A stretch of DNA of 64,000 bases from the NCBI RefSeq assembly GCF_037041345.1, contig NZ_CP146287.1:1615501-1679500 (forward strand). The letters are read 5' to 3'. This DNA is from Abiotrophia defectiva ATCC 49176. Lineage in GTDB: Bacteria; Bacillota; Bacilli; Lactobacillales; Aerococcaceae. The translations under genes were made by a program, and so were the position numbers. Position 1 is the stretch's first letter; each line of letters opens with the position of its first letter. The notes beneath the pieces were generated by a model. The model was not told where the DNA came from, did no database searches, and saw only the letters and a list, made by a program, of their open reading frames with translations. This document shows, piece after piece, positions 41,225-43,081 of this stretch.

Positions 41225-41797
41225 ATGATTGTTCGTGATACTGTCCAAATGACCTGCCCTCATTGCCAGCATGTCCAAGACTTCGAAGTTCTCTTGCTTG
41301 TGACTGGCGATATGGAGCCCCCGTTGCGTGACCGCATCATTTCAGGCGATTGGGCGACCTTTAGCTGTCAGCAGTGTCAAAAGCAGGAGCGCATCATCTA
41401 CCCTACCCTCTACGAAGACCGCGTTGCTAAGGTCAGAATACACTATCAGCCAAATGAAGCAGAAGCCGCTCAACTCCTCAAGCAACTACCCGACATGGTT
41501 GACTCTTACGGTCCTGACTATGCCGACTACCAAATCCGCCTAGTGACCCATCCCTTGGACTTCATGGAAAAGGTAGCCATCTTCACTGCCGGCTATGATG
41601 ACCGTATCATGGAAGCAGTCAAACAGGCCTTAAAACAAGCCGACGGCCTACCTCATGACCTAGTCGACCTCTACTTCGGACTTAACCCTGAAGGAGATAA
41701 ATTGTTCTATCTCTACACCCCTTCCGGCTTGCTGGGACTAGACTTTGATGAGGCACTCTACCAGCAAGTGGCTGAGCGGGCTCCTGAATTCAAGTAA
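41225..41797 (+). CDS. CpXC domain protein of unknown function
   Basis: The 190-residue protein opens with MTCPHCQHVQDFEV and has a second Cys pair, FSCQQCQKQERIIYP, at about residues 50-58. The two pairs would bind one zinc. This CPxC-type layout defines a family of small uncharacterised Firmicute proteins. The rest is a mixed alpha-beta domain. GAAGGAG precedes the ATG. It is monocistronic and directly borders the CRISPR remnant. Confidence 0.85.
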   Translation: MIVRDTVQMTCPHCQHVQDFEVLLLVTGDMEPPLRDRIISGDWATFSCQQCQKQERIIYPTLYEDRVAKVRIHYQPNEAEAAQLLKQLPDMVDSYGPDYADYQIRLVTHPLDFMEKVAIFTAGYDDRIMEAVKQALKQADGLPHDLVDLYFGLNPEGDKLFYLYTPSGLLGLDFDEALYQQVAERAPEFK

Positions 41798-41856
41798 GAA
41801 CAGGTTTTTGTGGTCGATCAAGAGTGGATAGCTCAAGAAACTTGGATTTAGAAATC

Positions 41857-41897
41857 AAAAAAGAGACTGGATGTTTAATGAATCCAGTCTCTTTTTT
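41857..41897. terminator. Bidirectional terminator between the CpXC gene and the CRISPR array
   Basis: Arms of 16 bases with core GAGACTGGAT and ATCCAGTCTC around a 9-base loop, with A run on the left and eight T on the right. It ends the CpXC transcript and could also stop leftward transcription of the array. Confidence 0.85.
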
Positions 41898-41898
41898 T

Positions 41899-42132
41899 TG
41901 TAGTTAAGCATTCAAAACAACACAGCTCTTAAATGAGGTGATGTGCAGATTTTGCACTTCACCTGTTTGGTAAGCATTCAAAACAACATAGCTCTAAAAC
42001 GAGGTGATGTGCAGATTTTGCACTTCACCTGTTTGATAAGCATTCAAAACAACATAGCTCTAAAACCACTCGCCACCGGTCAGAGCGTAGTTGCCAGTTT
42101 GGTAAGCATTCAAAACAACACAGCGCGTTAAA
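41899..42132 (-). CRISPR. Small type II-A CRISPR array (three spacers) without cas genes
   Basis: Two near-identical 36-base repeats occupy 41965-42000 and 42031-42066 (one difference). Read on the minus strand they start GTTTTAGAGCTATGTTG and end ATGCTTACCAAAC, the type II-A repeat form. A degenerate repeat at 41899-41934 has changes at both ends, as expected of the trailer end. The fourth copy (42097-42132) is the tracrRNA anti-repeat. Spacers are exactly 30 bases: 41935-41964 and 42001-42030 (identical) and 42067-42096 (different, GC-rich). Transcription would run leftward. There is no separate leader, because the tracrRNA occupies that place, and no cas gene lies in the window. Confidence 0.92.
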
Positions 42133-42190
42133 ATAAGGTTTTATCCGCAATCAACTCTGATGAGTGAGCACCGATTCGGTGCTATTTTTT
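42097..42190 (+). ncRNA. tracrRNA of a type II-A CRISPR-Cas9 system
   Basis: The anti-repeat (42099-42121) pairs with the array repeat with one mismatch. The crRNA GA against tracrRNA GCG forms the usual bulge, and then GTTAAAATAAGG completes the lower stem. The nexus region TTTTATCCGCAATCAAC, a small ACTC/GAGT hairpin, and the last hairpin GCACCGA/TCGGTGC with a T run (42168-42190) follow. These correspond one by one to the nexus and hairpins of the Streptococcus pyogenes tracrRNA. It would guide RNase III processing and Cas9 loading. The 5' end and promoter are not evident, since the upstream sequence is spacer and repeat. Confidence 0.92.
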
Positions 42191-42373
42191 TGCATTTAGA
42201 CTCTTTGATTAACGCAAGGCACTTCCCTTGAATATGAAGATATCTCTTTTATTTTACTAAAATCTCCCTAATAATTCTTGCACATTCTTGCTGAAACGTT
42301 TAGGATTCTTGCTGTTTTTGATCATTTTGTCACATTCAGTTGCCTAATCAGCACGCTGCCCACTCCATATCAC
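42191..42373. other. AT-rich gap with three ATTCTTGC direct repeats
   Basis: No gene is visible. ATTCTTGC occurs at 42274-42281, 42284-42291 and 42305-42312, with start-to-start spacings of 10 and 21 bases, close to whole helical turns. It could be a protein-binding site or the remains of CRISPR flanking sequence. Confidence 0.5.
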
Positions 42374-42408
42374 CAAAAAAGAGGCTAGAACCAAGTTCTA
42401 GCCTCTCT
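42374..42408 (-). terminator. Terminator of the SpxH-like gene
   Basis: AGAGGCTAGAAC and GTTCTAGCCTCT-type arms around TTG on the minus strand, then six T. Confidence 0.88.
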
Positions 42409-42412
42409 CTTA

Positions 42413-43081
42413 TTATCTTTTTGTTGCGACCAGCTTCAACCGAGTAGGTCGAGGGCAGCAAGTTTTATCCATTAATAAGTCCACTTGTTCCAGAATGTGT
42501 TGGCACTCCATCGGTCCTTGTAAGAGGATGCCGGAGTCCCCGGAACACTGTTCAAAAATAATGAGTGACGGTGTATCTTGTACTTTCATCTCGAGCGCAA
42601 TCTTTTGATCACGATAGTAGAGTTCCTTGACGTATTGAGAACGTCGGTCACTCTCGAAGAGGGCCAAATCCAAGCCAATATCACAGGCTAAGTTGGCCAA
42701 AAAGTCATCCGTCAGCCGTTCTAAATCAGAATTAATGCGACTTTGCATTTCGTAGAGGTATTGACGGCCACGACGCTTGCCTTGCAGACCCGCTGCCCGG
42801 TAAGCCAAGGTGGCAGAATAAATCTTCTGGAAAATTTCGTTGCGATGACGCAAATCTTGAGGTTCATAACCCAACTGCATCATGTAACGAGCAATGAGGG
42901 GTTGACTGGTAAAGCAGAGAATATGCACATCCGTCTTGGCCGGCATTTGCTTAATCGCACGGCTGAGTTCGCGCTCAACTCTGCGGCAATCTTGCCCTAG
43001 GGGGTTAACAAAGAGATACAACTCAAATAATCTAGCCTGACCATGGCCTGATACTTGATAGGCCACTTGCTCTTGTGGCAT
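42413..43081 (-). CDS. DsbA-family protein, SpxH/YjbH-like ClpXP adaptor
   Basis: The 222-residue protein begins with a thioredoxin-type strand and helix start, FELYLFVNPLGQDCRRVERELSRAI, followed by a helical insertion and a cis-Pro-like TPSLIIFEQ. In SpxH/YjbH this region reads DPLCxxC; here only the second Cys (of GQDC) remains, so redox activity is unlikely. Members deliver the Spx regulator to ClpXP for degradation under normal redox conditions. GAGGAGGG precedes the ATG. Assignment rests on fold features and the NPLGQDC motif. Confidence 0.72.
   Translation of the reverse strand: MPQEQVAYQVSGHGQARLFELYLFVNPLGQDCRRVERELSRAIKQMPAKTDVHILCFTSQPLIARYMMQLGYEPQDLRHRNEIFQKIYSATLAYRAAGLQGKRRGRQYLYEMQSRINSDLERLTDDFLANLACDIGLDLALFESDRRSQYVKELYYRDQKIALEMKVQDTPSLIIFEQCSGDSGILLQGPMECQHILEQVDLLMDKTCCPRPTRLKLVATKR

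Follow-up and report, generated by a model that had tools for sequence, protein, structure and literature searches.

A Cas-less type II-A CRISPR locus of Abiotrophia defectiva, probably left by crossover of an array repeat with the anti-repeat of the tracrRNA

CRISPR-Cas systems are commonly lost, which exposes genomes to phages and mobile genes. To our knowledge, the disappearance of whole CRISPR-Cas loci has seldom been witnessed. The stretch of the A. defectiva genome analyzed here (64 kb in its entirety; hereafter, the window) contains CRISPR repeats and a tracrRNA that are joined to each other and have no cas genes beside them. How could all protein-coding genes of such a system be lost while parts of its guide RNAs were retained? 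Our analysis indicates that the locus is very probably what remains of a type II-A CRISPR-Cas system after an array repeat crossed over with the tracrRNA anti-repeat and the DNA between them was deleted.

The locus has three type II-A CRISPR repeats of 36 nt on the minus strand, separated by 30-nt spacers (spacing 66), and the repeat consensus on the minus strand is GTTTTAGAGCTATGTTGTTTTGAATGCTTAyCAAAC. The features are as follows.

41857..41897, no strand: terminator-like hairpin (inverted repeat) next to the array's trailer end; the left-flank homology with the closest genome (G001) stops at 41900
41899..41934, minus strand: degenerate terminal CRISPR repeat at the trailer end
41935..41964, minus strand: spacer, inverted-repeat sequence, identical to 42001-42030
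41965..42000, minus strand: CRISPR repeat
42001..42030, minus strand: spacer, identical to 41935-41964
42031..42066, minus strand: CRISPR repeat
42067..42096, minus strand: junction-side spacer
42097..42124, plus strand: hybrid repeat/anti-repeat, the putative place of the crossover; GTTTGGTAAGCATTCAAAACAACA, as in the array repeat at 41965-42000, then CAGC leading into the tracrRNA
42098..42189, plus strand: tracrRNA (RF02348) with the second hairpin, the terminator hairpin, and a T-run
42190..42373, no strand: stretch separating the tracrRNA from the right flank common to G001, without counterpart in G001

An Rfam search identified the tracrRNA with a score of 83.7 bits (gathering score, 70; E-value, 5e-12), and RF02348 was the sole Rfam match within the window. 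Its anti-repeat starts exactly one 30-nt spacer past the last array repeat. From 42097, GTTTGGTAAGCATTCAAAACAACA is identical to the repeat at 41965-42000, and CAGCGCGTTAAAATAAGG then runs on as tracrRNA. The two marks of a deletion scar, namely a repeat exactly one spacer off the anti-repeat and a hybrid junction in which the 5′ end of an array repeat is followed by the tracrRNA body, are thus both present. The pattern CTCTAAAAC-N(50-76)-GTTAAAATAAGG occurred once in the window and in none of 100 shuffled sequences. The repeat coordinates and the Rfam match confirmed the arrangement described in the original prediction, which consisted of minus-strand repeats, a plus-strand tracrRNA, and an anti-repeat one 30-base spacer away. 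The prediction had also taken the stems and hairpins of the tracrRNA to be intact; in the predicted structure, the second hairpin and that of the terminator both fold, the nexus stem is short, and the repeat/anti-repeat duplex has a predicted energy of -40.2 kcal/mol.

Two consecutive spacers (41935-42030) have the same sequence, which is a nearly perfect inverted repeat; this feature is absent from the original prediction. No further copy of the inverted-repeat spacer (42001-42030) was found in the genome at three or fewer mismatches, and a search of phage records and IMG/VR for protospacers of the two distinct spacers yielded no convincing target.

The genome containing the window is closed and consists of a single contig of 2,045,142 bases. 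No match to the Cas9 family TIGR01865 was detected in the whole genome, in agreement with the earlier description of the locus as Cas-less, and no second tracrRNA match was detected in this contig. No open reading frame for cas1, cas2, or csn2 adjoins the array, as judged from translations and not from a family search. Among the characteristics of a type II-A system, the locus therefore has 36-nt repeats with 30-nt spacers and a tracrRNA with a repeat-complementary anti-repeat, and it lacks cas9 in the genome and cas1, cas2, and csn2 beside the array. It resembles the S. pyogenes-type II-A locus in repeat sequence, repeat and spacer lengths, the RF02348 tracrRNA, and the placement of array and tracrRNA on opposite strands. 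Unlike that locus, it has no cas9, cas1, cas2, or csn2 and probably no leader or tracrRNA promoter, and its array and tracrRNA have one hybrid repeat in common.

Since the anti-repeat forms a direct repeat with those of the array, a single crossover could delete everything in between. We propose that the ancestral locus comprised the array (minus strand), csn2, cas2, cas1, cas9 (minus strand), and the tracrRNA (plus strand), and that one of the array repeats crossed over once with the tracrRNA anti-repeat, presumably through host homologous recombination. This would have removed the remaining array together with every cas gene and the promoter of the tracrRNA, and the trailer end of the array, fused with the tracrRNA body, would have been left behind. 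The locus layout suggests that the array leader, being on the cas side, would have been removed by the deletion as well.

Scanning 84,980 species for the pattern yielded eight matches, three of which (S. porci, S. hillyeri, and Aerococcaceae DSM 111022) have the same 81-base junction; no Cas9 match was found in any of these three genomes. The other five matches (Gastranaerophilales, Gammaproteobacteria, two Psychrobacter, and Flavobacteriaceae) had other spacings and no Rfam match and were rejected as chance occurrences. In an order-wide sample of 395 genomes, the exact pattern was present in the window and DSM 111022 alone. A sister genome of DSM 111022, G024, has the intact order array-csn2-cas2-cas1-cas9-tracrRNA with 26 repeats, where csn2, cas2, and cas1 were named by their order and translations rather than by family search. 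Between the orthologous flanks, G023, which was taken as DSM 111022 because their junction sequences agree, has a single repeat and a single spacer followed by the fused tracrRNA, and lacks the 26 repeats, csn2, cas2, cas1, and cas9 present in G024. The right flanks of the two genomes are 94.4% identical, starting inside the anti-repeat, and the left flanks are 78.9% identical beside the locus and 92% farther out.

The window's own site was compared with that of its closest genome, G001. The left flank aligns up to 41900 at 93.8% identity, and the right flank aligns from 42374 at 94.6% and then 92.0%. According to the original prediction, a relative with cas9-cas1-cas2-csn2 between 42096 and 42133 would prove the deletion; no CRISPR or cas genes were found at the site in G001, the relative compared, which has there a 5.5-kb operon for a sugar PTS, a regulator, and a TIM-barrel protein (L033:10476-15976). 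Because G001 holds this operon exactly where the window has the scar, the site accepts differing inserts. Since no compared relative has cas genes there, we infer the deletion at this site from the anatomy of the locus and by analogy. The sharp edges of the module at 41900 and 42374 relative to G001, with other DNA between them in the latter, could also be explained if an array or tracrRNA fragment, for example a mini-array on a mobile element, had been inserted without any deletion of cas genes. We consider this extremely improbable: insertion predicts neither the exact 30-nt spacing nor the hybrid repeat/anti-repeat, both of which a deletion predicts, and sister pairs elsewhere carry intact loci between the same flanks. 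A whole CRISPR locus may have reached the site by insertion before the deletion took place. An intact locus of the same genus, in G002, was excluded as the ancestor of the scar; its repeat is different and it adjoins a metal-transporter operon.

Streptococcus genomes were surveyed for the same kind of residue. A tracrRNA match was found in 118 of 284 species genomes, with 120 matches in total. Cas9 was located within 2.5 kb of 70 of these matches, and for 12 the only Cas9 lies farther away or on a different contig; assembly breaks or unrelated matches account for some of the 12. The other 38 matches were in genomes without a Cas9 match, although a few of the weakest are probably not tracrRNAs. 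In eight Cas9-less loci (G076, G078, G114, G160, G233, G267, G282, and G357), the anti-repeat is preceded by a repeat 66 or 67 nt farther upstream; one of these genomes, G160, has a short-type Cas9 at another place. Further Cas9-less loci stop at the terminal repeat of the array.

In four scar/intact sister pairs, both flanks were orthologous: G357/G133, G267/G271, G102/G103, and G203/G209, with left-flank identities of 90.8%, 92.9%, 94.4%, and 94.6%, respectively. The junction in the sister pairs falls inside the stretch common to repeat and anti-repeat. G203 retains TAGATTGG, the degenerate 5′ end of the terminal repeat of G209, and G102 retains the 15 bases adjoining the terminal repeat of G103; in these two, the crossover took place at the last repeat, so that no repeat-spacer unit remains. 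For G233, G279, and G114, one flank shows partial or no alignment to an intact relative. Together with G023/G024, the four pairs support the single crossover between repeat and anti-repeat that the original prediction had put forward, at sites other than that of the window. Judging from these comparisons, the identical type of scar arose repeatedly in streptococci and their relatives and is a recurring route of Cas9 loss.

Several successive deletions might instead have removed the cas genes, leaving the junction as a coincidence. Some Cas-less Streptococcus loci (G106, G131, and G347, for example) indeed have no clean junction; however, the window and several distinct lineages have the exact one-spacer spacing, and no cas fragments were detected up to about 5 kb from the scars in Streptococcus. 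Such stepwise decay is extremely improbable.

A hybrid junction is frequent among Cas-less Streptococcus loci. Of 39 loci with no Cas9 alongside, 16 have an anti-repeat that opens with the 5′ end of the array repeat itself, compared with 0 of 33 intact loci (p = 9e-6, a value that overstates independence because related species were each counted). The count of 16 is conservative because scars with a degenerate terminal repeat, such as that of G203, were not scored as hybrids. Both this signature and the promoter rule described below are measurements in Streptococcus, outside the genus of the window. In L103 (G167), the anti-repeat is ACACAGCTCTAAAAATAAG, as if the exchange had occurred farther downstream, in the TAAAA common to repeat and tracrRNA.

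The scars retain zero to three repeats, and the sister arrays examined have about 19-64. A uniform distribution of crossovers along the array makes six such pairs unlikely (p = 3e-4, a rough estimate with hand-set counts and pairs chosen post hoc). Either the trailer end is favored for the crossover, or the residual arrays shrink later. The residual spacers were not found in the intact sisters and vary from scar to scar.

Is the residue still active? In Streptococcus, all 33 intact loci have, within one mismatch, a TATAAT-like -10 box whose position hardly varies and is about 5 nt upstream of the anti-repeat. A comparable hexamer at any nearby spacing was found in 12 of 39 Cas-less loci, as expected of AT-rich DNA. 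In most scars and in the window, the -10 box of the tracrRNA is replaced by spacer or trailer DNA, and no promoter-like site was found on the plus strand at 41750-42450 of the window. With the -10 box replaced and the leader presumably gone, the residue in the window is probably a silent relic. The original prediction had suggested that the guide RNA parts might still be working; with no Cas9 match in the genome and with the place of the tracrRNA promoter and the array leader probably deleted, a guide or regulatory role for the residue is unsupported.

The fused array and tracrRNA might nevertheless be a maintained design, with both RNAs expressed and serving either in regulation or as guides to a Cas9 that is gained and lost with mobile elements. 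The predicted hairpins of the window tracrRNA are intact, and Cas-less Streptococcus tracrRNAs often match intact scores, up to 105 bits, which would accord with this explanation. We nevertheless regard it as highly improbable, because the promoter position is probably gone, the residual spacers are unlike among scars, sisters hold intact loci at the same sites, and neither the window's genome nor S. porci, S. hillyeri, or DSM 111022 has a Cas9 match. Among tracrRNAs scoring above about 50 bits, the median covariance score was 90.4 for Cas-less and 95.0 for intact loci (p = 0.02). This small difference indicates weak decay, and by sequence alone the tracrRNA could have kept a role. It is very unlikely that the scars are under selection, with an expressed tracrRNA and terminal repeats that regulate host genes or await a regained Cas9 or cas operon. 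If scars were selectively kept and a cas operon were regained by recombination at the site, Cas loss would be reversible.

Orphan arrays and the loss of CRISPR-Cas are well known (PMC6546361, PMC5491264, PMC8616872). Enterococcus faecalis CRISPR2 is an orphan array and, like the window locus, has no cas genes (PMC5491264); in the window, a tracrRNA is fused to the array through a hybrid repeat, and the genome has no Cas9 match elsewhere. Natural isolates of Mycoplasma gallisepticum from house finches lost cas9, cas1, cas2, and csn2; there, the tracrRNA goes together with the cas genes and the array alone stays, whereas the window keeps the tracrRNA body and has its junction in the anti-repeat (PMC11893278). 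Clinical isolates of S. pyogenes have lost the array or the whole CRISPR-Cas locus, a natural loss in a related genus, as in the window, for which the review passages name no mechanism (PMC6546361). No account of Cas loss through a deletion between repeat and anti-repeat was found in the open-access papers searched, and its novelty is hence unproven.

Through such a crossover, the type II-A layout, which places a direct repeat of the array (the anti-repeat) on the other side of the cas genes, provides a built-in route of loss, and its scar is recognizable in any genome. With 38 tracrRNA matches in Streptococcus genomes without a Cas9 match, Cas loss could be dated and counted in this genus, making tests of the selection behind it feasible.

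Further variants were observed in Streptococcus. Six Cas-less loci (L074, L075, L077, L078, L070, and L089, from G154, G198, G299, G204, G291, and G148, respectively) combine a hybrid anti-repeat with a single array repeat 447-450 nt upstream; in most of these loci, a related sequence, such as GGTTGCTAATAAGTCATCTG, takes the place of the tracrRNA terminator. They represent either a second type of scar or a later insertion. The Cas-less loci L099 and L100 (G203 and G282, respectively) have an extra hairpin, CCAAAAGATTTTTCTTTTG, in the tracrRNA bulge between the halves of the repeat duplex. Split or stop-bearing Cas9 genes were found in G021, G043, G013, G298, G352, G268, and G205; loss of Cas9 through gene decay, a separate route, occurs too.
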